Of a stretch of 64,000 bases of DNA, positions 10,652 through 56,936 are shown in pieces (the stretch's first letter is position 1; each line of letters begins with the position of its first letter). A program made the translations under genes and the position numbers. The stretch is from contig NZ_JAKGSC010000001.1 of the NCBI RefSeq assembly GCF_022478115.1, forward strand, positions 992,001 through 1,056,000, written 5' to 3'. Below the pieces are notes generated by a model that searched no databases, was not told where the DNA came from, and saw nothing but the letters and a program-made list of their open reading frames with translations. Source of the DNA: Tenacibaculum aquimarinum (GTDB lineage: Bacteria > Bacteroidota > Bacteroidia > Flavobacteriales > Flavobacteriaceae).

Positions 10652-10711
10652 AGTTCTATTGAAAGTTGAGCAAAACTACGCATTTTTTTTGAGTTTATTT
10701 TTTATTGAAAT

Positions 10712-10742
10712 AAAAAAACCTCGCAAAATTGCGAGGTTTTTA
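10712..10742 (-). terminator. terminator between tsf and pyrH
   Basis: The 8-bp stem AACCTCGC / GCGAGGTT (6-nt loop) is flanked by A and T runs on both sides. It terminates tsf on the minus strand. Confidence 0.9.
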
Positions 10743-10764
10743 AGTAAAGTTTTAAGGATTTTAA

Positions 10765-35641: not shown

Positions 35642-35713
35642 TGGCCTATGGTGTAATTGGTAACACACCGGTTTTTGGTACCGACATTCAAGGTTCGAGT
35701 CCTTGTAGGCCAA
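35642..35713 (+). tRNA. tRNA-Gln (anticodon TTG)
   Basis: 72 nt. The acceptor TGGCCTA/TAGGCCA and T arm CAAGG/CCTTG with TTCGAGT loop pair fully, and the D stem is GTGT/ACAC. The anticodon loop TTTTGGT gives anticodon TTG. The CCA end is not encoded. Its last 16 bases are also the left boundary of an integrated island. Confidence 0.95.
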
Positions 35714-35714
35714 C
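35698..35714 (+). repeat. left attachment site (attL) of the tRNA-Gln island
   Basis: AGTCCTTGTAGGCCAAC occurs here, in the tRNA T arm and acceptor, and again at 56920-56936. Confidence 0.9.
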
Positions 35715-36779: not shown

Positions 36780-39700
36780 TTGAATATCTCTAAACTCCAT
36801 ATTTTTTCGAAAAATACAGATGCAACTGCATCATTGAGAGGCTATCACTATCAAGTTCTAAAAACTTTAGAAACTCTTATTAGAAATTCTTTACTTGGTA
36901 TAAAGGATGAGATTTATTGTGACTTTGAAGAGGATATTTTTCAAAAAAATGAGATAACAGGCACAACAAAGTTTAGGCAAATAAAACTGTATTCAAGAAA
37001 TTTTTCATTTAGTACTGATGAAATACAGAAGTGCTTAGCACATTTTTTTATGCTTCACGTCAAAACAGATTATGCTTTATTAGAAAAAGAGTTCATTTTT
37101 GAAGCTAATTCATCAGTAGCAAATGTACGTGGTGATAATGATGCTGAATTACTTAAAAACTGGAATAAACATCAAGGTGATTTAAGTGAAGAATTAGCAA
37201 AAAAATGTGCAGACAAAGCTAAAGAGATAATTACCCAATATATAGAAAAGCAAGCTGTTGCTATTGATAAGGATGATAAAAACCCGTTAGTTAAAGAAGC
37301 TATTGATGTTTTTAAAAATCTTCAAGATTCAGATTGGATTGAGTTCATAAAAAAAATAAAATGGGTATTTAATGATACTAAACCAGACATAGAGTTTGCA
37401 CAACTTAAACAAAGTATTGAAGATGATATTTTAAAATTACCCTTTCAAATAAATAAGGAAAATTTACCTTCTATTTTTGGAGAACTTCATACGTTGGCTT
37501 GGAATAAGGCAACGAACACTAAAATTGAAGATAAGAAATTAACATTAAATGAACTAAATGATGTTCTATTAAGATCATCAAATGATCAAGACAAATGGTA
37601 TTGGTTAGTATATGAACGATGGGTAAATATTGAGGAGATAAACGACTTTTTTATTGGTCAATTCTATGAGGTTTTAGATGCTACCAGACATTGTAGAGTA
37701 ACAAAGTATTTAACTCAACATAAAGAAGATTGGCTCAAATTATTAAAAATCTATATTAATAATACTAAGATTGATGTTAATTTTAAAAGAGTAGCTATTT
37801 ATGAATATTTATGGTTGCTTTTGCATCCAATAAATTATCGTGAAATACCTGAAGGAAATTTGAAAGGTGAAGAAGAATATTTTAGATTTTACTTTAAAGA
37901 TTTTGATGTTTTTAAAACTGCGAGGGAAATTGAAGATGCTCAAAGTTTATTGAATATTGCTGTTGCAGCTGGATTTATGGATAAAACGAATCTAGACGGA
38001 CAAGAGGTACAAGATTGGTTTGAAAGTATGCTAAATCTTTTAAATGCAAAAATTGAAGCAGAATCAAATCCTAATGAAAAATGCCATCTTTTAGAAAACC
38101 TTGCCACTCACCTACTTTTCCTTAATGCTAATAGAAATAAAGAAGACAAGAAACTATCCGAAGTTCTTAATCCATTGGAAGAAATTTTCGAATTGTTAGG
38201 GAATGCAGACTACTATAATGTCTCATTATTAAGTAGTCGATTGGATGAGTATATTGAAATGCTTATTGAAACTGATCCTGAATCAAATATTGAACTTATT
38301 GATGGTATAAATGATTATTCGGAAAAATTAAACCCAATAGTAGAAAGTCGTGACGGAAGTTTTAAAGGAGCTAAAACTGAACTTGAAAGAGGCATGAAAT
38401 ACTTAAGTAGTAATGTTCCTAAATTGTCTTTAAGGGCATTGCAATGTTTTCATAAAGCAAAAAGTAAATTTAGAACGCAGGAAAGCTTTGAAGGGTATGT
38501 ATTATCACTAATTAATATAGCTCAATTATATTCTGGAATTGGAATGAATTTAGCAGCTAAATATTATGCGCTCGCAGCTGCTTGGGCTAGCATACATAAT
38601 GGTGATAGAAAACTTCTTAAAAGAATTGCTGATGCATTCGGAATTGTATTCTACGCAGATTTTAAACAAGGTGCATGGATGAATGCTATTGTTTCATCAA
38701 TAGATTATATAAAAGCTCGTAATGAGTTTAAAGCAACACCACTTGACCCTAATATAGAAGAAATGCCTTTTAAGGTTATGGGAGATTTAGCTCTAATTTT
38801 TCATTTGACTCCAAAAATTTCTCCAGAGCTTGCTGTAATGGTAAAACACAGAATTGATAGTTTACATGACTTAAGTAATGATTTTATAAAACCTGCTATA
38901 GCCATATTAGAAGAATCCAAGCCAACATTTGATTCTTTGATTCCAGTCATAGAACATCATCTAACAGATAAACCTCTCAATGATGTAGGTGTTTCAAGGT
39001 TAGTAAGTTTTAACGCGCTCGGAATTGAGTGGAAAATATCATTTCCAAATACTTATGAAATGGTTCCACAAGCGGAAGAGTTTTGTGGAATTGCACAAAT
39101 AACTCTTGCGGAAATTGCTCTCTCAAATTATGACTTTCACTTAATCCGTGGCGTTGTAAGCATTAAATTAGAGAGTAACGTTGACTTTAAAGGACCAGAA
39201 CTACAACCATCCAATGAAGAAATTATTTGGAAGGCTTGGGTAAGAAATCTAGATAGTCAAGATGGGAAAGAAGTCGTCTTAAGTATGTCGTCAAGTGTAA
39301 CTGCAATTAGAACTGTATTAAGTAATTTAAGTCTTCTCCCATTTGATGAGTTTGATTCACTTTTTGAAACTTTATTTAAAGAGTCAGATTTAGCTGGAAA
39401 AACGCATATTGGAGGATTATATCAAAGAATGTACAGAATCGTATTTAATAAAACGAATTTTGACTCAATACAGCGTGATAAATTTACTACTGTTACTTTA
39501 GCTGATTTAGATCTTCCAAAAACTAATAAAGTCATGGAATGGGAAAATTCATTAAGCGCTCTTTATAATCAAGTAGAAGCTAAAAAAAGGATAGATCAAC
39601 GATTTAAAAATGCTTACAAAAATTGCCATTTAACTATAACAAAATTAAAAGAAAATCCTAAATTTAAATTACTTATTAAAAAATTAAGAAATGAAGGCTG

Positions 39701-40049
39701 GCAAGATTGGCATATTATATGTGCTATGAAAAATTTTATTTTAACACATAAAACGAAATTTAAATTAAGGGAGTTAACAAGCCCTATTGAAGAAGATTTT
39801 AATAGGATATTTTTTGAATTAGCAAAACTTGATGAATCCGATTTTGAGGCAGAGTTTCCTTTAGAAGCATTTGAAACTGTTGAGTTTGAATTATATCTTA
39901 AAGACAACATAATTAAGATTCTCAAATCTTTTGGTTTAGATAACCCTTCTAGGTTTCCTAATTTTTTAGCCATTCGAGAATTTTTAGATATAAGATTCAA
40001 TATGATAGAGGATGGTTCTGGAGAGAACAATCCTTTTAAAGACTTATAG
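36780..40049 (+). CDS. large DUF4297/Cap4-like putative nuclease with helical repeat domain
   Basis: A 1089-aa protein. The N-terminus (ASLRGYHYQVLKTLETLI, CDFEEDI, then FRQIKLYS at about residues 20-82) fits the DUF4297/Cap4-type dsDNA nuclease fold, a PD-(D/E)XK variant with E-D and QxK as catalytic residues. The remaining 900 residues are mostly helical, with TPR-like stretches near 570-640, a typical sensor architecture in antiphage proteins. The start is TTG: a stop lies two codons upstream and no ATG precedes the nuclease motif. It ends 11 bp from the convergent hsdR gene. Family call by motif, moderate certainty. Confidence 0.65.
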   Translation: MNISKLHIFSKNTDATASLRGYHYQVLKTLETLIRNSLLGIKDEIYCDFEEDIFQKNEITGTTKFRQIKLYSRNFSFSTDEIQKCLAHFFMLHVKTDYALLEKEFIFEANSSVANVRGDNDAELLKNWNKHQGDLSEELAKKCADKAKEIITQYIEKQAVAIDKDDKNPLVKEAIDVFKNLQDSDWIEFIKKIKWVFNDTKPDIEFAQLKQSIEDDILKLPFQINKENLPSIFGELHTLAWNKATNTKIEDKKLTLNELNDVLLRSSNDQDKWYWLVYERWVNIEEINDFFIGQFYEVLDATRHCRVTKYLTQHKEDWLKLLKIYINNTKIDVNFKRVAIYEYLWLLLHPINYREIPEGNLKGEEEYFRFYFKDFDVFKTAREIEDAQSLLNIAVAAGFMDKTNLDGQEVQDWFESMLNLLNAKIEAESNPNEKCHLLENLATHLLFLNANRNKEDKKLSEVLNPLEEIFELLGNADYYNVSLLSSRLDEYIEMLIETDPESNIELIDGINDYSEKLNPIVESRDGSFKGAKTELERGMKYLSSNVPKLSLRALQCFHKAKSKFRTQESFEGYVLSLINIAQLYSGIGMNLAAKYYALAAAWASIHNGDRKLLKRIADAFGIVFYADFKQGAWMNAIVSSIDYIKARNEFKATPLDPNIEEMPFKVMGDLALIFHLTPKISPELAVMVKHRIDSLHDLSNDFIKPAIAILEESKPTFDSLIPVIEHHLTDKPLNDVGVSRLVSFNALGIEWKISFPNTYEMVPQAEEFCGIAQITLAEIALSNYDFHLIRGVVSIKLESNVDFKGPELQPSNEEIIWKAWVRNLDSQDGKEVVLSMSSSVTAIRTVLSNLSLLPFDEFDSLFETLFKESDLAGKTHIGGLYQRMYRIVFNKTNFDSIQRDKFTTVTLADLDLPKTNKVMEWENSLSALYNQVEAKKRIDQRFKNAYKNCHLTITKLKENPKFKLLIKKLRNEGWQDWHIICAMKNFILTHKTKFKLRELTSPIEEDFNRIFFELAKLDESDFEAEFPLEAFETVEFELYLKDNIIKILKSFGLDNPSRFPNFLAIREFLDIRFNMIEDGSGENNPFKDL

Positions 40050-40060
40050 TTAGTTCAGTT

Positions 40061-43000
40061 TTAATTATACTTCTTAAAATTTTCTGCTTGCTCAAAAATC
40101 TCTTTAAAAACTTCATCTTTAGTAATAGGAGGGTAGTCGTTTTCCGCTAAAAGGATGATTAAATCAACTTTTAGTTCTGCTTTTATATCATCACGATGGT
40201 TCCAGTCTGTATATTTAGCTTTGTCATCAACAACTTTTTTAACTTCTTTAGCAAGATGTATAAGTTTGTCATCAGGGTAAGAAAAATCATATTTATGAGC
40301 AATTGCTTTTAAAATATCATAGAATGCCTTTTCTTCGAAATCAATACCCATTTCTGAAAAGGAATCTTTTTCTTTTCTTAACTCGTGGTATAAATCAATT
40401 ATTTCATCTGTAAAATCCTCTAAAACATTGCTGTTTAAAATATCTTGCTCACTGCGTTCATTATATCTTTCTACTATAGATTTAAACTTTTTAGAGAAAT
40501 CTATTCCTTGAATTTTGTTAGTTTTCTTTAGTTCATCAATTGCTTTTAATAGCAGTTGTTGCAACAGTTTTATTTTTGTGTTTGGAAGTTTTATCTTTTC
40601 AATTTTAGCTAAGTAGGCTTCATCAAAAATATCTATTTCATTTTGTTTTTCTTCTCCTAGTTTAAAAATTTCCTCTACACCATCACTAAGCAAAGCTTCT
40701 TTGATCATATCTCTAACCTTAGCATTCATTTGCGCCATATCTGGAGCATTGCCTTTAGTAAGTTTAAAAACAATAGAGCGAATAGCTAAATAAAAGTGTA
40801 TATAATCTTTTTGAAGGTTTGTAAACGCTTCAGCACCACAACAAATATCATAAGCAGCTTTTAAGCGCTTAACAATATTCATAAAACGTGTTTCAATATT
40901 TTTTGTTAGTTGAACAAATTCAGCACCTTTATTTAAACAATCTAGTTGTTTAATACCGATACCAGAAAAATAATCTGAATCATTAAATTTATGAAACAAT
41001 TTTGCTAATAAATCTAACTGATCTTTAACAACAACTATTGAGGTTTGAATATCTTCAAAATTCTGACCATCAACAGCAGAGTATTGTTTTAATGCTAAAT
41101 TCATTTGTTTTTTAAACCCGATATAATCTACTACTAACCCTTTGTCTTTAGATTTATATTTTCTGTTTACTCTTGAGATTGTTTGAATTAAATTATGTTG
41201 TTGAATAGGTTTATCAATATACATGGTGTCCAGAAAAGGAACATCGAAACCAGTTAGCCACATATCAACAACAATTGCAATTTTAAAGTTGGACTTTTCG
41301 TTTTTAAATTGCCTGTCCAATTCTTTTCGGTCATCTTTTGTGCCTAACAGATCATACATTGCTTTAGGATCATCTTTACCACGCGTCATAATCATCTTAA
41401 TGCGCTCCATAGGTTTGATTTCCTTCTTTTCTTTATCTGTCAGTTCAGAACCTTCTTCAAAAGCTTTTACAACTGTCCACTCAGGACGTAAAGCAACAAT
41501 TTCTTGATATAGATTAAATGCAATTGGTCTAGAACTACAAACAAATAATGCTTTGCCTTTTATAGTTGCACCTTCTTCAATTCTAGTTTCATAATGTTTT
41601 ACAAAATCTTTAGCTATGGCTTTTAATCTATCTGGATCGCCAATTATAGCATTCATATTGGCAGATGCTTTTTTACTTTCCTCTATTTGATAATCATTTG
41701 CACCTTCATCTGCACATTGCTTATAATACTCTTCTATTTCTTTAAGTTTGCTATTTTCTAACACAACTTTAGCTGCACGACCTTCATACACAATACGAAC
41801 AGTAATTTCATCCTTTTCAGATTCTGTCATGGTGTAAGAATCTATAATGTCTCCAAAAACACTTAAAGTTGCATCAATTGGAGTTCCTGTAAAACCTACA
41901 TAAGTTGCATTTGGTAAAGAGTCGTGTAAGTACTTAGCAAAACCATACGTTTTTTTAACACCATCTTCTGTTACGGTAACTTTTTGATCTAAGTTTATTT
42001 GACTTCTGTGGGCTTCGTCCGAAATACAAATAACATTTGTTCTTTCAGTTAGTAATTCTAAGTCTTCAGTAAATTTGTGAATCGTTGTAAGAAATACACC
42101 ACCACTTTTTCTGTTTTTTAGTAGTTTTTTTAATTCTTTTCTACTTTCTACACTTACAATAGTGTTGTCTCCAATATATCCCTTTGCGTTTGTAAATTGG
42201 CTAGAAAGTTGGTCATCTAAATCGGTTCTGTCAGTTATAATTATAATTGTTGGGCTTTTAAAATGTGGACTTCGCATTAAAAGCCTAGATAAAAATAACA
42301 TGGTGTAACTTTTACCACAACCAGTTGCTCCAAAGTAAGTACCACCTTTTCCGTCTCCATCTGGTTTCTGGTGTAGTTTTATGTTTTCCAACAGTTTTGT
42401 TGCGGCATAGTATTGCGGATAACGACATACAATTTTTAAATCGTGTTTGTTGCTATCTGGAAAGTAAATAAAGTTATGAATAACTTCACGTAACCTGTTT
42501 TTATTAAACAACCCTTGTATCATAGTATACATAGAATTGATACCATCTACTTCTTTATCAAAACCAAATACTTTTCTCCAGGCATAATAAAACTCGTAAT
42601 TGGCAAAAAATGAGCCCATTTTACTATTTACACTATCACTAATAACACAGAATGCATTGTATTTAAACAACTCAGGAATGTCTCTTTTGTATCTTGTAGT
42701 TAATTGTACATATGCATCGTGTAAAGTTGCATTTTCACGAATAGCACTTTTAAATTCCATAACAACTAACGGCAAGCCATTAATGTATAGAATACCATCT
42801 GGAATACGTTTTTCATAACCGTAAATCTCTAACTGATTTACAATTTTATAAATGTTATTATCTAATTCTGAGTAATCTAATAAATGAATATATAAGTCCT
42901 TTTTAGAACGGTCTTCTCGCTCTAACTGAAACCCATTACAAACCAATTTTATTATTTGTTTGTTAGATTCATACAGATCTGAAGCGCTAAAGATTTCTAA

Positions 43001-43201
43001 CTTTCTAATGATACTTTTAATTTCATTATCAGTTATGTTCTCATTTTTGTATTGGCTTTGCAAATAGTTTTTTATATCTGCTTTAATAAGCACCTCGTTC
43101 TGTTTGCGTTCAATAGTATTTCCTAAAGTATGCGGAATACCTTCATTGCCTAGCAACTCAATAAAAACGTTTTCTAATTCTGCTTCTGTGAATTTTTTCA
43201 T
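40061..43201 (-). CDS. hsdR: type I restriction enzyme, R subunit
   Basis: A 1046-aa HsdR, the ATP-dependent translocase and nuclease. The N-terminal PD-(D/E)XK domain has PDG near residue 137 and EFK near 150. SF2 motor motifs follow: Walker A GATGCGKS near 290, DEAH near 396 and the motif III-like GFTGTP. A C-terminal helical region binds the methylase. It is the last gene of the seven-gene run that starts with hsdM. It appears intact. Confidence 0.93.
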   Translation of the reverse strand: MKKFTEAELENVFIELLGNEGIPHTLGNTIERKQNEVLIKADIKNYLQSQYKNENITDNEIKSIIRKLEIFSASDLYESNKQIIKLVCNGFQLEREDRSKKDLYIHLLDYSELDNNIYKIVNQLEIYGYEKRIPDGILYINGLPLVVMEFKSAIRENATLHDAYVQLTTRYKRDIPELFKYNAFCVISDSVNSKMGSFFANYEFYYAWRKVFGFDKEVDGINSMYTMIQGLFNKNRLREVIHNFIYFPDSNKHDLKIVCRYPQYYAATKLLENIKLHQKPDGDGKGGTYFGATGCGKSYTMLFLSRLLMRSPHFKSPTIIIITDRTDLDDQLSSQFTNAKGYIGDNTIVSVESRKELKKLLKNRKSGGVFLTTIHKFTEDLELLTERTNVICISDEAHRSQINLDQKVTVTEDGVKKTYGFAKYLHDSLPNATYVGFTGTPIDATLSVFGDIIDSYTMTESEKDEITVRIVYEGRAAKVVLENSKLKEIEEYYKQCADEGANDYQIEESKKASANMNAIIGDPDRLKAIAKDFVKHYETRIEEGATIKGKALFVCSSRPIAFNLYQEIVALRPEWTVVKAFEEGSELTDKEKKEIKPMERIKMIMTRGKDDPKAMYDLLGTKDDRKELDRQFKNEKSNFKIAIVVDMWLTGFDVPFLDTMYIDKPIQQHNLIQTISRVNRKYKSKDKGLVVDYIGFKKQMNLALKQYSAVDGQNFEDIQTSIVVVKDQLDLLAKLFHKFNDSDYFSGIGIKQLDCLNKGAEFVQLTKNIETRFMNIVKRLKAAYDICCGAEAFTNLQKDYIHFYLAIRSIVFKLTKGNAPDMAQMNAKVRDMIKEALLSDGVEEIFKLGEEKQNEIDIFDEAYLAKIEKIKLPNTKIKLLQQLLLKAIDELKKTNKIQGIDFSKKFKSIVERYNERSEQDILNSNVLEDFTDEIIDLYHELRKEKDSFSEMGIDFEEKAFYDILKAIAHKYDFSYPDDKLIHLAKEVKKVVDDKAKYTDWNHRDDIKAELKVDLIILLAENDYPPITKDEVFKEIFEQAENFKKYN

Positions 43202-43212
43202 TTTATTGATTT

Positions 43213-45711
43213 TTAATTCAATTTAGAAATTGTTGTTTTAAAAGCCTCTTCAAATTTAGATAAATTACTAATGATAAAATTATTCATTTTATCCCAATCA
43301 TCTTGTTCGAATAAATTTACGTTTTGCATTTCGAATTTAATTCTACTCATTTTATGTTCTAAAAATTCATTCCAAATTAATTCGTTTCCAAAAGAATCTT
43401 CAATTGCGTTTTTATCTTTTAATAATTGATTAAAATACTGTTTATTTCTCTCTTTGTTTGAAGAAGAAATATTGAGCTCAATTCTAACATAGTAACCTGT
43501 TACGGATAACATAAAAGAAACTCCACTTATTCCAGCTCCAGCACTTATCCAATTGTCTTTAGAAGGACTTATGTTAGAAAATAGATTCGTGTTTTCTATT
43601 AGCGGTAGTAGTTGTTGCCAATACTTTTTTCTAATTGAAAATCTACTAGGTTCAATATCTTCACTTTTATATTTTAGGATTAATTCGTCTTCTAACTCAA
43701 AAAGTGTTAAAAGCCTTTTTAGAATATTAAATTTCGAGCGACTTTCTACATTATATTCTATAAAATAACCATTTAAAACTTCTCCAGAAGCTCTAAAATC
43801 ATCTTCATTTTTTGAAATTTTTAAGATGTCTTGATTATTAATTAGTAGTTGTGTATTCTTCTTGAAAAGACTTTTTATAACATGATCATACATTCCTGCA
43901 ATATGGCTTTCTTCGACCTTATTATCTTCAAAAATAAAATATTCTAACTTCTTGTTTGTTGGACTATCTGCAACAAAAATATTTTGTTCTGTATTGCTAT
44001 TTGTTTCAGGGATTATCACTTTTGGATATTCCCAAATTTGTAAAAAACGTTCGTATATAATTTCAAATCGTTCATTATATTTTTCAATAGTCCAATTATC
44101 TATGCTTTTTAAATAGGTGTTTAACCAAAGACGACTGAACTCATAACCTTGTTCTTTACCATCAATATTCATGGTCTGCTTCTCTGAAAATGCTTTGTTG
44201 CTTAAAGCTCCATTATTGCCAGATAAAGTTAAATTACCTATTGTATTTAAACGCTTTTCTTTAAACTCAAAATAATCTTCTGGTTTTAATTCTGTATTCC
44301 ATTTTACATGTGGATTTCTCGGAAAGATGTGTTCTATAGTAATATTTTCATTTGAAGTATCTACATATTCTCGATTGTTAAAATTCTCAATCATTTCAAA
44401 CATATACTTTCTATTCTTTGCTTGAATATTATATAAATCTTTATCTTTTAAGGCAGTTCTTAAATCTTCATTTGTTGGAAACTTAGAACTTCCTTTTTTC
44501 TTTAGTAAAGAAATTTCAATAGAATCGTAATAGTTTTCGGTATCTACATCTGCATATAACGACATAAATATTTTGTTTAATGCATTTGTTGGTAATCCCA
44601 CAATAAATCTACGCCAAGTATAACTTTGAATAAGTTTTAGAATTTTAACCAATTCAATTTTATCTATAATACCATTCTCCTTATCTTCAAAAACTTGAAG
44701 TAAAAACGGAAAAGCCACATTAATTTCCAAACGACTTATATATTCTAACTCTTTTTTTATTTCTGAATCTGAAACATAACTTGGATTTATAAATCTTTTA
44801 TAATGTGCAGATAATGATTTTATATTCTCTAATTCTTGTTGGTATATTTCACTCTTTTTGTTTTTATACAGTTTTTTAAATTCTGCATACACTTTATTTT
44901 TATTAGGTATTTTTTTACTTTTCAGTGTCAAGTAATCTCTAATATAATCTGAAACCATTGATTTTTGCTTGACTAAATCTTTCGCGTTTTCTTCAATTGG
45001 ATTCCAGATTTGCTCAAAAATACGAGATTGGTCTTTTGGCTCTAAATCCATTAAAATAAAGTTTCTGATTAAATCTGATTGTGACAATTCTAAACCAGTA
45101 GAGTTTAAACTTTCAAAAATACGTTGCGGATCGTCTTTGTCTCTTTCTAGAGAAATTTCTACAAAAATTAGTCTTTTTAAACCATTTTTAATAATCTCAA
45201 AATTATCTATTGTTATTATCGATCTAAAGAAATTATAGTTTTCAATTACGTTAGAGTAGCCACCGAACTCATTCTCTGTTGCATTCATTATTGATTTAAA
45301 TGCTAATGAGTTTTGGTCTGTTTGCTTTAGTTTTAATTTGCTCGATTCTTGCTCTACATATTGGTTGGTTAAAAACATATTGTAAAGTCGATCTGCTTCA
45401 CTGTTTAAATTATTCTCTTTCGCAAATCTGTATAAAGCAACGTATAGTATATTAATAGTTGTTAAACGTTGTTGTCCATCTATAATTACCAATTCTTTTA
45501 CTTCGCTAGTACTATAAATACCTTCATGTATAAAAACTATACTACCAATAAAATGTGTGCCTCTTTGGTCTGTTTGTACTGCAACAATATCATTTATTAG
45601 CTCACTACACTCTTTAGTACTCCAATCGTAATTTCGTTGATAAACAGGTATAACAAATTGCACATTAGCTGCTTGTAAAAAATTATTTATTGGTAGTTCG
45701 TTTGCTTTCAT
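43213..45711 (-). CDS. DUF262/DUF1524 protein (GmrSD-like type IV restriction)
   Basis: An 832-aa fusion. The N-terminal DUF262 domain carries the DGQQR motif near residue 80 (NTPase-like active site, ParB/Srx fold). A middle helical domain follows, then a DUF1524 HNH-type nuclease with IEHIFPRN near 462 and IGNLTLSGNN...F.EK. It ends in a further 250-residue domain of unknown type. Single-chain GmrSD-like proteins cut modified phage DNA. It sits between hsdS and hsdR and overlaps the upstream gene by 29 bp. Confidence 0.85.
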   Translation of the reverse strand: MKANELPINNFLQAANVQFVIPVYQRNYDWSTKECSELINDIVAVQTDQRGTHFIGSIVFIHEGIYSTSEVKELVIIDGQQRLTTINILYVALYRFAKENNLNSEADRLYNMFLTNQYVEQESSKLKLKQTDQNSLAFKSIMNATENEFGGYSNVIENYNFFRSIITIDNFEIIKNGLKRLIFVEISLERDKDDPQRIFESLNSTGLELSQSDLIRNFILMDLEPKDQSRIFEQIWNPIEENAKDLVKQKSMVSDYIRDYLTLKSKKIPNKNKVYAEFKKLYKNKKSEIYQQELENIKSLSAHYKRFINPSYVSDSEIKKELEYISRLEINVAFPFLLQVFEDKENGIIDKIELVKILKLIQSYTWRRFIVGLPTNALNKIFMSLYADVDTENYYDSIEISLLKKKGSSKFPTNEDLRTALKDKDLYNIQAKNRKYMFEMIENFNNREYVDTSNENITIEHIFPRNPHVKWNTELKPEDYFEFKEKRLNTIGNLTLSGNNGALSNKAFSEKQTMNIDGKEQGYEFSRLWLNTYLKSIDNWTIEKYNERFEIIYERFLQIWEYPKVIIPETNSNTEQNIFVADSPTNKKLEYFIFEDNKVEESHIAGMYDHVIKSLFKKNTQLLINNQDILKISKNEDDFRASGEVLNGYFIEYNVESRSKFNILKRLLTLFELEDELILKYKSEDIEPSRFSIRKKYWQQLLPLIENTNLFSNISPSKDNWISAGAGISGVSFMLSVTGYYVRIELNISSSNKERNKQYFNQLLKDKNAIEDSFGNELIWNEFLEHKMSRIKFEMQNVNLFEQDDWDKMNNFIISNLSKFEEAFKTTISKLN

Positions 45712-46177
45712 TTCTTATAGCTTTTTTGTTAACTCTATTTCTTTTATCTTTTAAAGGCACTTTCTCACTCAAATCTTTTAATATGTTTTTTGACAACGTA
45801 TATTCTTTTTGCTTTTTTAAACCTCGTTTTACAATATACTCATCAACAATAAATTGACCAGGGCCATTAAACAATTCTTCTAACTCACCATTTTCTAAGA
45901 TATTTACGCTAATAAAATAATCTGGAATTGGAAAATCTGGAAAATAACTATAACCATGAAAGGATGCTTTTATTTGCACTTTTCTATCAGTAGCAATTTC
46001 AAAACCATCATGGGTTATAAAATTATCTGAATACAGTTCAATACCATATTTTTCTGACACTAAAACTTCACCAATATCTCCAACCAACTTTCCATCAAGA
46101 GTAAAGTTCTTTTTTTGTAGTTTGTATTTTTCTCTTAATCTTTTTGTTATAGCTAGTAATTCTTTTATCTCTTTCAC
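45683..46177 (-). CDS. small endonuclease-like protein (DUF6998-type)
   Basis: A 164-aa protein. GDIGE (residues 33-37), D64 and QIK (68-70) fit a PD-(D/E)XK-like core, and the family is often found beside R-M genes; I associate it with DUF6998. The C-terminus is very basic (KKAIRNESKRTTNK) and may bind DNA. It overlaps the DUF262 gene by 29 bp and starts 15 bp after the preceding gene, so it is part of the R-M operon. Confidence 0.6.
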   Translation of the reverse strand: MKEIKELLAITKRLREKYKLQKKNFTLDGKLVGDIGEVLVSEKYGIELYSDNFITHDGFEIATDRKVQIKASFHGYSYFPDFPIPDYFISVNILENGELEELFNGPGQFIVDEYIVKRGLKKQKEYTLSKNILKDLSEKVPLKDKRNRVNKKAIRNESKRTTNK

Positions 46178-46192
46178 CTTTTATCTCTTTTT

Positions 46193-47341
46193 TTACTTTT
46201 CTTTTTCTAAAAATATCTCAACTTTTTTAAAAATAGATAAAAAATGATCTTCTTCTAATTTATTTAAAATAAAACTTGATAATTGGTGAATATCGTTTGC
46301 CTGTAAAATATATTCTTTTGTAGCAAAGTGCGACCAATTATAATTTGTTGAAGTAAAGTTTTCAGAGAAAGAAACTTGCAACTCGTCCTCAGTAAAATCT
46401 ATTTCTTTGTATTTCTCTCTATTAATTAAAGCTTCATTTTGAAGCTCTACTATTAAAAATAATTTATTAGCACCTGTTAGTAAATGATCAAACCCAATTG
46501 TAAACATTAAGTTTTTATTCTTCTGAGAAATAAAACATCGAATTCTACTATTCATGTTCGAATTAGATCTTGGACTGGTTAAAGTAACACCATTTAAAAT
46601 ATTCCCTGCTTTTTCTATTTCTGCCTTTACATGGTTTTCTACACCTTCGCTAAATGCTTTTGTTTCTCTAATTTTCTCTTGAAAATTATAATAAAAATCT
46701 ATTTCTTTTTCAGTCATAACAGTAGTACTTAAATTCATCATATTTTGAATAAAATCTTTTAAAAATACGGTGTATTTATCATTTGCTTGCAGTAAATAAA
46801 AACCCATATTTTTTTGAACCTGCTCTAGTAATTTTTTGTGTGTAATACAGATGTAATTAGAAGCGTTTTTATATTCTGAATAATTACTTCTTGAAATATT
46901 ATGTAAGGATAAAATAACACCAACTTTGTTTTCACTTTGCACGCTACTCCAATAATCATCTAAATCATTATCTAGATGATGATATACTTTATTCTCAATA
47001 ATAATAGAGTTTTCAGGGCTAGTTAATAATAAATCTATTCTACCTCCATCAAGTGTAGAAAACTCTGTTATGATTTCGAAATTAGAAAAAGTGTTTGTTA
47101 GAATAATATTTTCTTTGCCTAATTTAGTTTTGGATATTAACTCTAATAAACTTTTTATAAATAAATCTTTAAAGTTATGCTCTTCGTACGCATTAAAAAA
47201 GAAAGCATAAATATTCGAAACTACATTTTCGTAATGTGGTTGTTTGGCAATACCTAAAAAGGTTTTTGGTTTGCCCTTTATTTTTGGTATTTCGTTTTGG
47301 CTGAGAAAGGTTTGTAAGTTTTCTATATTAGTGTTTGTCAT
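46193..47341 (-). CDS. PD-(D/E)XK nuclease family protein
   Basis: A 382-aa protein with a clear PD-(D/E)XK core: RIDLLL near residue 102 followed by IIIENKVYH near 115 (D, E-x-K), then a conserved YW in DDYWSSV. This matches the PDDEXK_4 type found in defence loci. The C-terminal half is of unknown fold. It starts directly at the stop of the RelA/SpoT-like gene, so it is co-translated with it. Confidence 0.78.
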   Translation of the reverse strand: MTNTNIENLQTFLSQNEIPKIKGKPKTFLGIAKQPHYENVVSNIYAFFFNAYEEHNFKDLFIKSLLELISKTKLGKENIILTNTFSNFEIITEFSTLDGGRIDLLLTSPENSIIIENKVYHHLDNDLDDYWSSVQSENKVGVILSLHNISRSNYSEYKNASNYICITHKKLLEQVQKNMGFYLLQANDKYTVFLKDFIQNMMNLSTTVMTEKEIDFYYNFQEKIRETKAFSEGVENHVKAEIEKAGNILNGVTLTSPRSNSNMNSRIRCFISQKNKNLMFTIGFDHLLTGANKLFLIVELQNEALINREKYKEIDFTEDELQVSFSENFTSTNYNWSHFATKEYILQANDIHQLSSFILNKLEEDHFLSIFKKVEIFLEKEK

Positions 47342-48685
47342 TTATTCCTTTATTAAATTTACAAACTCAACTTGCTTGCTTTTCATGATTTTTTGAATTC
47401 TATTATTATGTTTCTTTAAAAAATTTTCTACAATTCTTTTTCTAAGGAAATACTTTGGTATATAATTTTCAAGTTCTATAATAAAATTATCATGTGATCT
47501 TTTAAAGTCACTTACTTTTAACTGTATTTTTTTGGCTAATTGTCTTTCTTGCAACTTGTCCATTTTTTTGGTTCTACCAATAACCACTCTATTTCTTTCC
47601 ATTTTATTAAGTACAAGATCTGCGCTTTCTGCTATTATATCTAGAATTAGATTAGCAACTAAATCTTCGTAGGTTTTAAAAATCTTTTTAAATTTTAAAA
47701 TTTTTTTATCCTCTAAAGCTTCTTTTGCTAGCTCTTGAATAATGGGTGTAATGTCACTAGTAAACGTGTGATAAGACAGTATGTAATTCGCATAAGCTAC
47801 ACTTATCTGCTTAAAATTTGGTTTTTTAATGGAGGTTAAAACTATTTCGGCAGATTGGTTTTCTTTATACCTCTCAAAATAAGCTTGCTCAGCTTCATCA
47901 AAAGTTTTAAATGATTTTAAAGTTGGTATCTCTGTTTTAGAAGCTTCAATTAAAAAGAACGAATTATTCTTATCCTCACTTGCCCATCGTTTTTTAACTT
48001 CTGCATTGTTTTTTCTGAAGGTTTTACTTAAAACAGATATAAAATCTCGCTCTGCTAATACTTCATATATTAAGTTGGCTTCTTCTTTATTTAGTTGTTT
48101 ATCGCTAGACATTAAAGCGTGAAACTTCCCGAATTTTTCATCGGATTTAAAACCGAGTTCTTTTAACCTTAAGCCATATAATAAATCTGTAATTTCTATA
48201 AGTGTAGCCCAATTATGATGGTCTATTGTACGTAGTTGTATTTCTATACGACGTTTAGAAATTGGGTCTTTAACATAAACGTGTATGCCTTTATAACCAA
48301 TATCTCGTTTTCTATCGTTTATATAATCTCTGGTTTTTCCACCTGTTTCAAAAGCATTTTCAATTAATTCTTTGGCTTTATAGACTTCTGCATCATTATA
48401 GAAAATACAGCGTATGCCACCAATATCTCCCATTCTACTTAAATCCATTCCTTTCTCTCTAGGAAGTTTATTAATAATGGTATCTATACGTTTTAATCTA
48501 AATGCAAGAATACTAGAAGGATGCACTGTATCTGCCAAGTCTCGCATCTTATTAAACACATTCACTAATGGTTTAGAAAAAGAGGTTCTAAACTCTTGTA
48601 AAAGTTCTAATTCTTCTGGTGTTATCTCTCCACCTCTTGCTGCAATAGCATCTCCTATCTTATTAATTTTAGTGTTAGAAACCAT
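47342..48685 (-). CDS. RelA/SpoT-domain protein (putative nucleotide pyrophosphokinase)
   Basis: A 447-aa protein. Residues 45-185 match the RelA/SpoT synthetase domain: RLKRIDTIINKL near 65, RMGDIGGIRC near 88, GYKGIH near 130 and IEIQLRT...HNWATLIE near 148. No HD hydrolase, TGS or ACT domain is present. The C-terminal 260 residues are helical and unknown. It would transfer pyrophosphate to a nucleotide or, as toxic small alarmone synthetases can, to tRNA. Its place between hsdS and a nuclease gene points to an abortive-infection role (inference). Confidence 0.8.
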   Translation of the reverse strand: MVSNTKINKIGDAIAARGGEITPEELELLQEFRTSFSKPLVNVFNKMRDLADTVHPSSILAFRLKRIDTIINKLPREKGMDLSRMGDIGGIRCIFYNDAEVYKAKELIENAFETGGKTRDYINDRKRDIGYKGIHVYVKDPISKRRIEIQLRTIDHHNWATLIEITDLLYGLRLKELGFKSDEKFGKFHALMSSDKQLNKEEANLIYEVLAERDFISVLSKTFRKNNAEVKKRWASEDKNNSFFLIEASKTEIPTLKSFKTFDEAEQAYFERYKENQSAEIVLTSIKKPNFKQISVAYANYILSYHTFTSDITPIIQELAKEALEDKKILKFKKIFKTYEDLVANLILDIIAESADLVLNKMERNRVVIGRTKKMDKLQERQLAKKIQLKVSDFKRSHDNFIIELENYIPKYFLRKRIVENFLKKHNNRIQKIMKSKQVEFVNLIKE

Positions 48686-48687
48686 AT

Positions 48688-49929
48688 TTAAACTACGACT
48701 GTATTTGTTTCTACTTTTGACATTTTGGATAGAATTAGACTTTTGGTATTTTCTAAAAGTTGATTTTCATTGACAATTATATATATTCCATTAACTAATG
48801 GTTGAATCTTTAAATTAAATGCTTTTAGAAATTCTTTTTTAGGTTCTAAAAATGGAATGTTTCTTAAAGTAGATAGAGTTACATAATTCTGAGTACTTCC
48901 AGCCATACTACTTTTTATATATTCTAAACAGTTATTACCTTTTAAATAACACAGAACATATTCTGCTAATTCCCGTTTTTCAGAGCATTTAAAAAGACCA
49001 ACATTTTTTATTGCAAATTGAACATTCGACATCTGAACAAAATGTATTAATCCTACTGTACCAATCATACTAAAAAGTATATCAAATTGTTCAACCTGAC
49101 TTCTTCTATTAATTTGATTATAATCTTCTTCTGAAATATTGTACGTATCTTGAATTGCTATATCAAAAGGCTTCAAATGAGTTGATGTAACTAGTGGCAT
49201 TCCTTTTTTTACTGGTTTAGGCGAATCATGTGTACCATCTTTTACTGAAAATAAATTTTCAATTGGTAGTACTTCCCAACCCTCAGGAATCTCCAAATCC
49301 AACTCCTCATTATACACCATTTCACCACCAGAAGATTTATAAGGTTTACCATCTGCATTAGGAAACTCGAAATCCACAAACCAATGTTTATACAAAGCTT
49401 GTGCAGTGTCTTCTAGTTTTTGGTTTAGGGTTTCGTTTAGTTTAATACGATTTACAATGGTGTTGTATTCTTTAACTATTTCACGTTGTTTTTCTATGGA
49501 TGGAATTGGTAGTTCTAACTCGCATAAAGATTCCCAACTAAAACCACCACGAACACTACTATCTGTGGTAAACCAAACATTTCTATCAAACTCTGAACGT
49601 CTGCACCACATCATTAAATACTCTGGATCTAAAATGTTATGGTCTAAAATTTCAAAAACCACATAAGCTGGTGAAACAATTATTGGGTCGTCTTCTAACA
49701 ATACACTTATGGGTAAAATCTCGTCGCGACCAACGTGCATTGGATTGTAAGCAAATTGATGTTTTTCTACAACTCTATATCTTGATAAATCTGTGCCTTG
49801 AATATTAGCTACAGATTCCATAAATTCTTTGTTAATACGAATCCCTTTTAATACAGAAACTGAACCATCTGTGTTTTTCTTTTTTATCTGCTTTATGTAA
49901 TTACCAAGTGGCTTATAATTCGATTTCAT
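48688..49929 (-). CDS. hsdS: type I restriction enzyme, specificity subunit
   Basis: A 413-aa HsdS with two target-recognition domains (about residues 1-150 and 195-370). Each is followed by a helical spacer of the form QREIVKEYNTIVNRIKLNETLNQKLEDTAQALYKHWF. It determines the bipartite recognition sequence. It overlaps hsdM by 17 bp. The recognition site cannot be predicted from sequence alone. Confidence 0.9.
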   Translation of the reverse strand: MKSNYKPLGNYIKQIKKKNTDGSVSVLKGIRINKEFMESVANIQGTDLSRYRVVEKHQFAYNPMHVGRDEILPISVLLEDDPIIVSPAYVVFEILDHNILDPEYLMMWCRRSEFDRNVWFTTDSSVRGGFSWESLCELELPIPSIEKQREIVKEYNTIVNRIKLNETLNQKLEDTAQALYKHWFVDFEFPNADGKPYKSSGGEMVYNEELDLEIPEGWEVLPIENLFSVKDGTHDSPKPVKKGMPLVTSTHLKPFDIAIQDTYNISEEDYNQINRRSQVEQFDILFSMIGTVGLIHFVQMSNVQFAIKNVGLFKCSEKRELAEYVLCYLKGNNCLEYIKSSMAGSTQNYVTLSTLRNIPFLEPKKEFLKAFNLKIQPLVNGIYIIVNENQLLENTKSLILSKMSKVETNTVVV

Positions 49930-51487
49930 AGCCTAACTCTTTAAACACATTTAACAATTCGGTTTTAGATTGTGCTTCAGCTTTTAACAAGTCTGCAAAA
50001 TCAACTTGTAATGTTGACATCTTTTCATCAAAATTGATGTTCTCATCTCTGTTTACAAACTCAATGTACTTACTTGGTACTAAAGAGTAATCTTTTTTAC
50101 GTAAATCTTCAATAGTTGCAGAATGACAAAACTCGCCAATATTTTCATAATCATCTTCAAAAGAAGTTTGTTGCCAATTGTGATAAGTTGAAGATATTTT
50201 ATCTATTTCTTCACCAGAAAATTGAATGTATTTCTTTTCAAATGGTATTCCTACTTTTCGTAAATCAATAAAAAGCGTTTCATCTTCACGATTACGATAT
50301 TGTTTTTCAACACCATTAATTGTAACCGTTCTTTCTTTTTTATTATTATTTAAAATCCAAAGTGTTACAGAAATATCAGTAGTATAAAACATCTTTTGAG
50401 GTAAAACTAAAATAGCTTCTACCAATTTATTTTCAATCAGTTTTTTACGTATCTCGTATTCGGTTCCGCCACCAGATAATGCACCATTGGCTAATATAAA
50501 ACCTGCCACTCCGTTTTCTGAGAGTTTAGATACCATATTAAGAATCCAACCATAATTTGCATTTCCTGTTTGTGGCACATCGTAACCTCTCCAACGTGGA
50601 TCGTCTAGTAACTCGTCTGTAGCTCTCCATGCTTTTTGGTTAAAAGGTGGATTTGCCATAATATAATCTGCCTTTAAATCTGGGTGTTGGTCTTTGGCAA
50701 AGGTATCTGCTGGCACATCGCCTAAATTGGCAGAAATACCACGTATGGCAAGGTTCATTTTTGCTAACTTGTAGGTGGTAGCTGTGTATTCTTGCCCATA
50801 AATAGAAACGTCTTTTTTGTTACCGTTGTGGCTGTCTATAAATTTCATAGACTGCACAAACATCCCACCAGAACCACATGCAGGATCGTAAATTTTACCT
50901 TTGTATGGTTCTATTAACTCTGCAATAAGGTTTACAATACTTTTAGGTGTGTAGAATTCGCCTTTTCCTTTTCCTTCTGCAATGGCAAACTTGCTTAAAA
51001 AGTACTCGTACACTCGCCCAACAATATCTTGTTGTTGGTCTTTTAGGGTGTCTATATTGTTTATGGTATCTAGTAAAGCAGCTAGTTTACTAACATCCAT
51101 ATTTAAACGTGAAAAATAGTTGTCTGGCAATGCACCTTTAAGCGATGGATTGTTTTTTTCTACGGTATATAAAGCGGTATCTATTTTTAAGGCAATATCG
51201 TCTTGTTTGGCATTGGCGATGATGTAGCTCCAACGCGACTCTTCGGTTAAATAGAATACATTTTTTTGCGTGTAGAATTCAACCATGTCAACAAACTTTT
51301 CTTTACCATCGTCTATAATTTCTTGACGACGTTTCTGAAATTTGTCACTTGCGAATTTTAAGAATATTAAGCCAAGTACTACGTGTTTGTATTCTGAACT
51401 TTCTACAGTTCCTCTAAGTTTATTAGCAGAATCCCATAAAGTTTCTTCTATAGACTTTTGCTTTTTAGCTGTTGCTTTTTTAGCCAT
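49913..51487 (-). CDS. hsdM: type I restriction enzyme, methyltransferase subunit
   Basis: A 524-aa HsdM N6-adenine methyltransferase. The N-terminal helical HsdM_N domain (SIEETLWDSANKLRG) is followed by AdoMet motif DPACGSGGMF near residue 200 and catalytic NPPF near 279. The start is placed at the ATG at 51487; the longer ORF adds 19 residues unlike the family. It is the first gene of the seven-gene restriction run. Confidence 0.94.
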   Translation of the reverse strand: MAKKATAKKQKSIEETLWDSANKLRGTVESSEYKHVVLGLIFLKFASDKFQKRRQEIIDDGKEKFVDMVEFYTQKNVFYLTEESRWSYIIANAKQDDIALKIDTALYTVEKNNPSLKGALPDNYFSRLNMDVSKLAALLDTINNIDTLKDQQQDIVGRVYEYFLSKFAIAEGKGKGEFYTPKSIVNLIAELIEPYKGKIYDPACGSGGMFVQSMKFIDSHNGNKKDVSIYGQEYTATTYKLAKMNLAIRGISANLGDVPADTFAKDQHPDLKADYIMANPPFNQKAWRATDELLDDPRWRGYDVPQTGNANYGWILNMVSKLSENGVAGFILANGALSGGGTEYEIRKKLIENKLVEAILVLPQKMFYTTDISVTLWILNNNKKERTVTINGVEKQYRNREDETLFIDLRKVGIPFEKKYIQFSGEEIDKISSTYHNWQQTSFEDDYENIGEFCHSATIEDLRKKDYSLVPSKYIEFVNRDENINFDEKMSTLQVDFADLLKAEAQSKTELLNVFKELGYEIEL

Positions 51488-51739
51488 TAGTAAGTTAATA
51501 TTAAATATAAGTTGGTTTTCAAATAGAAAATTGTCTAAATACAATTATTCAATTTGGTTGTTCTTGAATAAAAAATTATTGAAGAAGCATTTTTTTGTTA
51601 AAAATACACAATAAAAAACCTCCAACAAATTTTGTGAGAGAATTATAATATTAAATAGTTTTAGAAATTCTGTTAATTAACTTTGCAATAAGATTTACAA
51701 TACCGCAATACTTCTAAAATATCTATTAAAAAAAAAGCT

Positions 51740-53631: not shown

Positions 53632-53633
53632 AA

Positions 53634-53960
53634 TTACGATCTAGGTTTAATATTATGAATTAAAAGACCTCTTTTTTCTCCATCTTTCCAGTTTAATTGA
53701 ATATTAATACCTGTAAGGTTTTTATCCATAGAATAAAGTCTATCTATTTCTTCTTGTAATAAAACCCACTCAAATCTTGGATTAGAGCTAATAATGATTT
53801 TTAATTTTTCTACCTCAGAAATTAAATAAGTTAGAAACCTTAAAAGAATATCATCAGTAATTCTATCTATTTTAAACCTTTCAATTTCAGTTAACATTCT
53901 TTCGATAATAACAAGTCCATTCTTAATGAACTTGTTATTTTGTGCGTTATAATCTTTCAT
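53634..53960 (-). CDS. hypothetical protein of the replication module
   Basis: A 108-aa protein, mostly helical with one long amphipathic helix, no Cys and no recognisable domain. Its ATG overlaps the HTH gene's stop by one base, and it ends 2 bp before the helicase-type gene. The three are therefore one translational unit. Confidence 0.6.
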   Translation of the reverse strand: MKDYNAQNNKFIKNGLVIIERMLTEIERFKIDRITDDILLRFLTYLISEVEKLKIIISSNPRFEWVLLQEEIDRLYSMDKNLTGINIQLNWKDGEKRGLLIHNIKPRS

Positions 53961-55468: not shown

Positions 55469-56740
55469 CTATTTTACTTTAAAGAAAGAGTTTTCTGAAA
55501 TTTTTAAAGCGCGTTCATCTTCTGTAATTCTTATGTAATTTAGAAATACTTTTTCAGAAGTATGTCCGCTAATTGCCATAATATCTAATGTGGGCATACC
55601 TGCAAAATATGCATTGGTACAGAAGGAGCGCCTTGATGTATGATTTGATATAAGTTGGTGTTTTTTCTTAGTCTCAGTAATTTCTTTTCCTCCTTTGGTT
55701 TTCGTTATTGTAATTTCTTCGTTTAATTTGGCTTTAGCTGCAATCTTTTTTAAAGCTAAATTAATATGTTGTTCGGGCATCCTTTTAGGTGGATTACCGT
55801 CATTCTTTTCTAGTATATTTTCTACGATTGGATGAATAGGAATTGGTAGATACTTTCCTGTTTTTTTAACGATTACTCTAAAAAAGCGCTTGCCATTACT
55901 TTCGTGAATATTGTTTTTGGTTAACCCATTAAAATCAGAAACTCTTAAACCAGTATATGCGCCAATAATGAATAAGTCACGCGCATTGTTATGTGTTGGA
56001 TTGTCGCTGTAATCAATATCTATAATTTTCTTTAACTCAACTTCATTTAAGTAAACTTGTGTGGATTTTGCACTAGGTTTTATAAAGCGTTTACTTTGAA
56101 AGCTTAAATTTGTGTTTAGATTTTCTTCCGTAGCAGCATTCATAAAAACTTTTAATTGTTTAATAAATTTACCAATTGTGTTTAAAGAAAAGTCTAAACC
56201 TTCTAAGTATTCAATAAATAAGCCGTAAAAATCCATGTTTATGGATTCGAAACTAATTGAATAGTTGTATTTTTTTTCAAAATCTTTTAATAAATCTATC
56301 GTTCTTTCGTATTCATTAATTGTTCTGATAGAAAGTGTTCTACCAGTACTATCTATAATCCTGTTTTTTGATTGGTCAATAAATTGTCTTGAAAAAGTAT
56401 ATAATGTTAATTTCTTTTCAATAGTTTTTTTACCAAAATATATATTAATATCTTTTTTTAGTTGTAGTTCAATTTCAGCGTTTTCGTAAGAGTTGTATTC
56501 TGTGATTTTCTTTAGAATAAAACTTTTAAAATCAGATAATTTTTTATTGATGTTGTCTTTAATGTTAGAGACATCACTCATATTTCTAACTTTCTGATTT
56601 CTATCGTCCCAATATCTTGGATGAATTTTTAGTTTTGTAGCTCCTCTTATTCTGCTTTTTGCAGCAAGATTTACAGCGTAATAGATAGTAACAGATTTTG
56701 TTGCTTTCTTGTTTCGAAGAAGAAACTTAACCGAAGCCAT
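55469..56740 (-). CDS. island tyrosine integrase
   Basis: A 423-aa phage-type integrase of the Bacteroidota kind: N-terminal arm-binding domain (KFLLRNKKATKSVTIYY, DDRNQKVRN), SAM-like domain (about 95-205), and a catalytic domain with Arg in TGLRVSDF, HTSRRSF and GHTSEKVFLNYI. It integrates the island into tRNA-Gln. The ATG at 56740 is used; the longer ORF starts at a TTG. Its promoter overlaps arm-type repeats. Confidence 0.92.
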   Translation of the reverse strand: MASVKFLLRNKKATKSVTIYYAVNLAAKSRIRGATKLKIHPRYWDDRNQKVRNMSDVSNIKDNINKKLSDFKSFILKKITEYNSYENAEIELQLKKDINIYFGKKTIEKKLTLYTFSRQFIDQSKNRIIDSTGRTLSIRTINEYERTIDLLKDFEKKYNYSISFESINMDFYGLFIEYLEGLDFSLNTIGKFIKQLKVFMNAATEENLNTNLSFQSKRFIKPSAKSTQVYLNEVELKKIIDIDYSDNPTHNNARDLFIIGAYTGLRVSDFNGLTKNNIHESNGKRFFRVIVKKTGKYLPIPIHPIVENILEKNDGNPPKRMPEQHINLALKKIAAKAKLNEEITITKTKGGKEITETKKKHQLISNHTSRRSFCTNAYFAGMPTLDIMAISGHTSEKVFLNYIRITEDERALKISENSFFKVK

Positions 56741-56763
56741 ATAATAGTGATTTTTAACCAATC

Positions 56764-56919: not shown

Positions 56920-56936
56920 AGTCCTTGTAGGCCAAC
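56920..56936 (+). repeat. right attachment site (attR) of the tRNA-Gln island
   Basis: An exact copy of the 17-bp tRNA 3' segment AGTCCTTGTAGGCCAAC. No other tRNA sequence precedes it, so it is not a second tRNA gene. Confidence 0.9.

Follow-up and report, generated by a model that had tools for sequence, protein, structure and literature searches.

The window analyzed here is a 64,000-nucleotide stretch of the Tenacibaculum aquimarinum genome (Flavobacteriaceae; assembly GCF_022478115.1, contig NZ_JAKGSC010000001.1, positions 992,001 to 1,056,000). Its interval 40061–51487, from the hsdR stop codon to an in-frame ATG of hsdM, contains a type I restriction-modification (R-M) operon with four extra genes between hsdS and hsdR. 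Seven intact open reading frames (ORFs), all on the minus strand, were called in the transcription order hsdM-hsdS-RelA/SpoT-PD-(D/E)XK-DUF6998-GmrSD-hsdR. From hsdM to hsdR, successive genes are joined by a 17-bp overlap, 2 bp, 0 bp, 15 bp, a 29-bp overlap and 11 bp, and the initial annotation of this DNA, which placed four extra genes on one strand with the hsd genes at gaps of 0–15 bp or overlaps, was correct in this respect. HsdM, HsdS and HsdR are encoded together, as in type I R-M systems.

49913..51544, minus strand: hsdM, type I methyltransferase subunit (TTG at 51544, likely start ATG 51487; Pfam N6_Mtase 7e-100 and HsdM_N 2e-22; PADLOC MTase_I)
48688..49929, minus strand: hsdS, specificity subunit (Pfam Methylase_S 1e-12 in two stretches; PADLOC Specificity_I 6e-60)
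47342..48685, minus strand: putative CapRel-type fused toxin-antitoxin (Pfam RelA_SpoT 3.5e-17; PADLOC PDC-S33 3e-56; PDB CapRel 7ztb/9erv 5e-18; structure model)
46193..47341, minus strand: PD-(D/E)XK_4 nuclease-family protein (Pfam PDDEXK_4 9e-17; PADLOC PDC-S26 3e-50)
45683..46177, minus strand: small DUF6998 protein, possibly PD-(D/E)XK-like from a motif seen by eye (Pfam DUF6998 1e-36; weak PADLOC mREase_II 0.004)
43213..45711, minus strand: GmrSD-type (DUF262 + DUF1524) nuclease with a DUF4268 C-terminus, likely type IV restriction (Pfam GmrSD_N 4e-36, GmrSD_C 2e-17 and DUF4268 5e-33)
40061..43201, minus strand: hsdR, type I restriction subunit (Pfam HSDR_N, SWI2_SNF2 and T1RH-like_C; PADLOC REase_I, E value 0; NCBIfam TIGR00348 above cut-off)

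Both GmrSD_N (DUF262) and GmrSD_C (DUF1524), the two domains expected of a GmrSD type IV enzyme, were found by Pfam in the protein encoded at 43213..45711. It also matched the PADLOC models Orf5 (9e-130), HEC-06 (5e-53), PDC-S11 (6e-35) and SspE, and its PDB sequence matches were the DUF262 protein 9jfl and SspE. It therefore resembles the GmrSD/SspE/HEC-06-type proteins, but differs from them by the extra DUF4268. The PD-(D/E)XK_4 protein had no PDB sequence match at E 0.01. The RelA/SpoT, PD-(D/E)XK and DUF4268 parts of the operon match PDC-S33, PDC-S26 and PDC-S11, respectively; PDC models are candidates obtained through "guilt by embedding" (Payne et al. 2024, as cited in PMC12988326 and PMC12255303).

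The RelA/SpoT protein and the CapRel family

The RelA/SpoT protein comprises a synthetase fold (residues ~1–170), linker helices (~171–240), a pseudo-zinc-finger antitoxin domain (~241–290), a YXXY motif (298–301) and an extra helical tail (~305–447). RelA_SpoT is its sole Pfam domain. Neither a hydrolase domain, whose absence had already been noticed in the initial annotation, nor an ATPase domain is present, and the protein is thus not a bifunctional Rel (long RSH). The other RelA_SpoT match of the genome is a 739-aa frame on a different contig. We found that the best match among solved structures by sequence was CapRel-SJ46 (7ztb, 9erv; 5e-18), which covered residues 21–308 and extended past the synthetase into the antitoxin domain, with an identity of ~30%. 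Ordinary alarmone synthetases were found among the PDB sequence matches at 2e-6 or weaker.

The phage SJ46 protein carries the published CapRel-SJ46 residues at the published numbers, so these residues can be mapped onto the window protein: R63, R92, Y131, Y298 and Y301 are the equivalents of R79, R116, Y155, Y352 and Y355. The catalytic residues R63, R92 and Y131, whose inactivity would have counted against the initial annotation, are intact. Residues were counted in 55 rows, the window plus 54 of 59 homologue loci (L numbers denote loci and G numbers genomes), after five of 60 homologue rows shorter than 300 aa (L065, L066, L070, L071 and L072) and Phrann gp29 were dropped. R116 is conserved in all 55 rows, and R79, the G-loop tyrosine Y155 and YXXY in 54 each. 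The sole tyrosine exception is L061 (Tenacibaculum, 9974–11224), in which the G-loop tyrosine and the second YXXY tyrosine are both lost. This joint loss is what a toxin-plus-antitoxin unit predicts, as if the pair decayed together.

An AlphaFold2 model (predicted local distance difference test, pLDDT, 87.3; predicted template modelling score 0.83) was built from a 48-row alignment that omitted L016 (contains X), L031, L045, L060, L061, L063, L068 and short rows. It has a predicted beta-beta-alpha-beta unit at 243–285, and such a unit is described for the pseudo-zinc-finger domain of CapRel (PMC9712102). In VIA-align, the model superposed on CapRel with Z 21.4 and a root-mean-square deviation (rmsd) of 3.8 over 261 aligned residues, model 1–318 lying on chain 14–372; the next family, plain alarmone synthetases, aligned over the synthetase domain only (Z 13.4). 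Foldseek also ranked CapRel first. Sequence alignment and predicted fold both run through the pseudo-zinc-finger domain fused to the toxin. The likeness to CapRel-SJ46 as described in PMC9712102 thus includes toxSYNTH and pseudo-zinc-finger domains in one chain, active-site residues, YXXY and the fold over residues 1–318. The reading that best accounts for the RelA/SpoT protein is a CapRel-type fused toxin-antitoxin whose second domain is assigned by alignment and predicted fold.

The PADLOC model PDC-S33 matches residues 2–318 of the window protein and ends ahead of the tail, which it leaves uncovered. The same model scores CapRel-SJ46 itself at 7e-87 and Phrann gp29 at 1e-23. Because PDC-S33 recognizes CapRel-SJ46, this embedded candidate is at least partly the CapRel family. 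The comparison joins PDC-S33 with a biochemically studied family, a link that was not found in the literature searched. That search, with subscription papers and the PDC-defining preprint outside its reach, did not turn up a paper that treats PDC-S33, places CapRel within type I operons or describes a tailed CapRel.

CapRel-SJ46 is reported to pyrophosphorylate tRNA, to be restrained by YXXY and to be released by a phage capsid protein (PMC9712102), and translation-targeting toxSAS are described as being kept in check by a block at their ATP donor site (PMC11782079). On these published grounds we infer tRNA as the target of the window protein. The initial annotation saw an alarmone-synthetase-like function; the continuation into an antitoxin domain with YXXY points instead to tRNA pyrophosphorylation, which was among the activities it proposed to assay. 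Several observations weigh against this assignment. Changes at A77, V338, L339, A341 and A351 activate CapRel-SJ46, and A341K made it toxic (PMC9712102). Of these five autoinhibition residues, the window protein keeps the equivalents of A77 and A351, while V338, L339 and A341 are changed, with a lysine at the A341 column where the loop alignment is unsure. The whole-chain Foldseek superposition on CapRel is loose (template modelling scores 0.46/0.58, rmsd 9.5 or more). The tail has no counterpart in CapRel-SJ46, and the tRNA target is transferred at ~30% identity, with (p)ppApp or ppGpp synthesis also compatible with the sequence. A toxic or regulatory alarmone synthetase, making (p)ppApp or ppGpp instead of modifying tRNA, would agree with the RelA_SpoT domain and its intact catalytic residues, and the toxSAS relatives FaRel and Tas1 make (p)ppApp (PMC11782079). 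However, in both sequence and fold the protein matches the tRNA pyrophosphokinase CapRel best, and donor-site blocking by YXXY is described in PMC11782079 for translation-targeting toxSAS; we consider such a synthetase improbable.

The C-terminal tail

Besides its place in an R-M operon, the window protein differs from CapRel-SJ46 in its basic helical tail, with 146 residues after YXXY compared with 18. In four non-Bacteroidota rows (L067, L068, L069 and an Aliarcobacter plasmid), 23–43 residues follow the motif. The tail is at least 106 residues long in 50 of the 51 loci L014–L064, one of which comes from Balneolota and the other 50 from Bacteroidota. The exception, L031, has 31 residues, and the alignment of this relative runs into a stop. 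The tail was predicted to be mainly helical, both in the full model and when folded alone. A named fold for the tail was considered and rejected: the tail alone reached pLDDT 80, its best matches were generic helical bundles, and the top one, MukF (Z 11.6, rmsd 3.8, 142 aligned), was below the caution level of ~13 for helical models. No viral match to the tail was found at E 0.001.

Mean pairwise identity is 0.18 in the tail, 0.50 in the toxin core and 0.42 in the antitoxin, as calculated from 50 rows with lengths of 390 aa or more. Compared with CapRel-SJ46, the window lineage therefore has a relatively conserved antitoxin region, and the tail is its most variable part. Being the most variable region, the tail may be the phage sensor. 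It nevertheless stays basic, and RNA or membrane binding fits as well as phage sensing: in the tail alignment (38 rows, one duplicated, from 48 references prepared), net charge was positive in 37 of 37 rows with a median of +11, the first 300 residues being also basic-leaning (median +6). Among 18 close pairs, 12 had a tail whose identity fell short of that of the core by more than 0.1; in the other six (L014/L015, L019/L020, L050/L063 and three pairs among L041, L043 and L045), tail and core were similarly conserved. A particularly clear case is L037 (9962–11269) and L042 (2191–3501), whose toxin genes are ~90% alike in the core. Their DNA identity is 0.85–0.98 over the first ~320 codons and 0.62–0.77 in the tail, and silent-site divergence is 0.31 in the core and 0.70 in the tail. 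The divergence continues into the following hsdS, which aligns only in short pieces. This mosaic suggests that at least one of the two tails was probably replaced by recombination. A tailed CapRel lineage, nearly all from Bacteroidota and with a diversifying tail, offers a handle on how CapRel senses phage.

R-M linkage and the contents of the hsdS-hsdR interval

An hsdS gene is the direct neighbor of the toxin homologue in 6 of the 51 loci L014–L064 (L014, L015, L019, L020, L037 and L042) and lies one gene away in L030, and in L016 the homologue follows a type IIG Eco57I/TaqI_C-type gene. The remaining 43 loci showed no R-M gene of the query set nearby, a further point against the proposed reading, since it implies that the toxin does not generally work together with R-M. 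Neighbor calls used profiles from the window's own proteins, which miss other defence genes, and many contigs are short, so these linkage counts are lower bounds. Among the families listed for the immediate same-strand neighbors (40 proteins), the commonest Specificity_I model had 7 members and many others had 6. When 40 genes were drawn 4–6 places away, no Specificity_I occurred among the 25 of 41 families listed; this draw contained a single REase_I and a single MTase_I (presumably hsdR of L015 and hsdM of L042) and one PDC-S41. The hsd linkage of the toxin exceeds chance. When 395 genomes were sampled evenly across the phylum, the extended protein was found at E<=1e-30 in at least four, a lower bound because the best four first-look candidates per genome were scored. 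Two of these four have it in a type I operon, the window and G171 (L126); G493 and G141, repeats of L023 and L022, had no type I operon around the toxin. DnaB (L010/L038), an RlmL-like methyltransferase (L022) and unknown partners were considered as a conserved second gene and rejected, as none was seen to repeat.

Overall, the toxin touches hsdS in eight of nine type I-linked cases. It follows hsdS in the window, L014, L015, L019, L020 and L126, and is on the hsdR side of hsdS in L037 and L042; L030 is the case with one gene between. The tree places five of the type I cases together with the type IIG one in a Flavobacteriales group that is supported (99/91) and has eight rows; L030 and the pair L037/L042 fall outside it. 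The R-M genes of L037/L042 belong to a different, EcoEI-like family, which brings the R-M families with the toxin to at least two. In this EcoEI-like operon a RhuM-family gene (L042, 1086–2084) directly precedes the toxin.

Type I operons with embedded toxins or nucleases are already known (PrrC, DarTG2, RloB and the PDC genes). In enteropathogenic E. coli, the interval from hsdS to hsdR houses the DarTG2 toxin-antitoxin genes, but these form a two-gene system for DNA ADP-ribosylation and belong to an island under RptR control (PMC12255303), and RloB proteins in type I operons are mentioned in PMC10440598, citing Campylobacter work. Another precedent is EcoprrI, a type IC operon carrying PrrC (PMC2610378, PMC3874165), where, as in the window, the gene for a translation-disabling, tRNA-directed toxin is inside an hsd operon. 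PrrC is nevertheless an unrelated protein with ABC-ATPase motifs and an anticodon nuclease, and according to the same sources it is silenced by the R-M enzyme, whereas the window toxin has a built-in antitoxin domain. The CapRel-type toxin could still act as a guard in PrrC's place beside hsdS, held or sensed by the R-M complex through a basic tail that docks on HsdS/HsdM or ties to anti-restriction proteins, so that a phage protein disabling restriction would trigger translation shut-off. The EcoprrI case, in which PrrC is released by T4 Stp, argues for this possibility, as do the contact with hsdS across at least two R-M families and the L037/L042 pair, whose tail but not core is sharply diverged, silent sites included, on into hsdS. 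However, a single recombination around hsdS would yield the same mosaic, shared ancestry reduces the hsdS contacts to fewer than eight independent events, and in most loci a protein with this type of tail is found without neighboring R-M genes. Moreover, Pfam found no PrrC homology (ABC ATPase and anticodon nuclease) in the window toxin, and YXXY and the G-loop tyrosine are intact in the nine R-M-linked rows (eight type I, one type IIG) and in L126. Autoinhibition has seemingly not been handed over: with YXXY in every R-M-linked copy examined, the toxin would restrain itself and the R-M complex would not be needed for its silence. We thus view a guard role as improbable; if it were true, R-M guards would have been invented twice, from unrelated proteins. 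In either case, adjacency to hsdS makes the old PrrC question, whether such toxins are guards of the enzyme or mere neighbors, addressable with a second, unrelated toxin.

A full-length HsdR 74–90% identical to that of the window was found in five same-genus genomes among 117 searched, and the hsdS-hsdR interval of each contains different genes. It holds AAA_15, GmrSD_N, GmrSD_C and AlbA/Schlafen in L098; an SMC/AAA protein, PDDEXK_4 and a protein whose start resembles AlbA/Schlafen (by eye) in L099, which also has YhcG between hsdM and hsdS; OLD-like, PDDEXK_4 and GmrSD_N in L100; OLD-like, a 172-aa unknown and Bro-N in L101; and four genes without Pfam match or named by eye, plus DUF6998, in L102. 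The toxin was not found in these five operons. The GmrSD of L098 (8187–9868) occupies two ORFs, GmrSD_N of 335 aa and GmrSD_C of 146 aa, and is either split or broken. In G171 (L126), the order is hsdM (80% identical), hsdS, toxin (80%), AAA_15 ATPase, an unknown gene, DUF6998 (62%), PDDEXK_4 (50%) and hsdR (69%); three of the window's four cargo genes recur together there, in another order and with other partners. The L015 toxin has Bro-N, DUF6088, AlbA/Schlafen and a protein of unknown type as companions. In the genus, three R-M systems further removed from that of the window (HsdR 36–37% identical) contain three genes (L104), one gene of 189 aa (L105) or none (L106) in the gap. An hsdR C-terminal piece in G008 (L103, 10182–11231; residues 682–1045, 87% identical), beside another large gene, is a leftover of the same R-M system. 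The window GmrSD itself has a relative of 72% identity beside the toxin homologue of L016 and another of 71% identity in an island of G043, in which no toxin was detected.

The initial annotation treated the operon as one system of fixed composition. In contrast, six operons of the same R-M lineage (L098–L102 and L126) have other mixtures, and this variation among relatives suggests that the four genes move separately. A conserved pairing of RelA/SpoT and PD-(D/E)XK with hsd genes was also rejected: the two are adjacent in the window only and share one more operon, L126, with three genes between. PDDEXK_4 occurs without the toxin in L099, L100 and L107, and searching the 59 toxin-homologue loci revealed no PDDEXK_4 homologue. 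What stood of the proposed linkage is the adjacency of toxin and hsdS, which recurs in the six loci and L126; the window's exact four-gene mixture was not met elsewhere among the loci compared. The initial annotation knew of no described system of this exact composition, but the novelty that this implies is not supported: each of the three larger cargo proteins is recognized by PADLOC models for embedded or known defence genes, and PrrC and DarTG2 are precedents for toxin genes in type I operons.

Such variation might also mean that the genes are passive passengers of a gap that tolerates insertions, adding nothing to each other and some perhaps decaying. The different cargo of each relative, the two-ORF GmrSD of L098 and stops within the aligned region of PDDEXK_4 in G102 and of DUF6998 in G055 are consistent with this view. 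On the other hand, all window frames are intact, and the ratio of nonsynonymous to synonymous substitution rates of the toxin gene was 0.03–0.13 in four computable pairs of relatives (a fifth pair was saturated at silent sites), so the toxin gene is under selection. We regard mere passengers as unlikely. The comparison of relatives points to a single hsdS-hsdR gap as an exchange site for whole defence genes.

The tRNA-Gln element and a model for the locus

The operon is located between two copies of the 3' end of a tRNA gene, with an integrase-like gene at one side.

35642..35714, plus strand: tRNA-Gln (TTG), target of the element; its last 17 bases, 35698–35714, are the left repeat
55469..56761, minus strand: tyrosine-recombinase-like integrase, named by eye from sequence and adjoining the right repeat
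56920..56936, plus strand: right 17-bp copy of the tRNA-Gln 3' end, attachment repeat (exact)

The exact 17-bp repeat beyond the integrase-like gene bounds an element of ~21.2 kb, and as judged from these sequence features the hsd operon rides on a ~21-kb element inserted in tRNA-Gln. The gene flanking its right end encodes a universal-stress-type protein (named by eye) and is present in 11 of 20 genomes searched, the window's own included. In 2 of the 10 other genomes (L116 and L117), a tRNA-Gln of the same anticodon lies 45 bp from the 3' end of this gene and points at it, the arrangement expected of an empty site. Of the other eight, L112 and L115 carry tRNA-Leu at that place, and the flanks retrieved for the remaining six contain no tRNA. 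In the window genome, no tRNA was found within 1.5 kb of the flanking gene.

Taken together, the locus is probably a type I R-M operon on a tRNA-Gln element, with the hsdS-hsdR interval serving as a cargo bay of exchanged defence genes that include a CapRel-type, self-restrained toxin. The operon layout, the element ends, the varying cargo and both CapRel domains (the second through alignment and predicted fold) come directly from the sequence, and the activities are proposed by analogy. One transcript would then encode layered defence. HsdMSR would cut unmodified incoming DNA, and the GmrSD protein, perhaps with the PD-(D/E)XK and DUF6998 proteins, would attack modified or otherwise resistant DNA. 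As the last line, the CapRel-type protein would remain silent, with YXXY plugging the ATP site of its own toxin domain, until a phage product binds the antitoxin region and/or the tail and opens it. The opened toxin would pyrophosphorylate tRNA 3' CCA ends, shutting down translation and with it the infection of that cell. The likely logic is thus the one suggested in the initial annotation, restriction with an abortive response behind it.

Other genes of the element and of the window may also be of interest. A 1089-aa protein encoded at 36780–40049 (plus strand), on the same element, converges on hsdR and may be another defence gene. It had no Pfam, PADLOC, NCBIfam (E<=0.01) or PDB-sequence match, and by eye its first 100 residues resemble the start of a Cap4/DUF4297-type nuclease. 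Beside the integrase, at 52441–54250 (minus strand), DUF5906/VapE-like primase and HTH_17 genes suggest a replication or satellite-type module of the element's own. Outside the element, a 1025-aa protein encoded at 20117–23194 (minus strand) has an NPPY motif and the look of an adenine methylase, and appears by eye to be type IIG-like.

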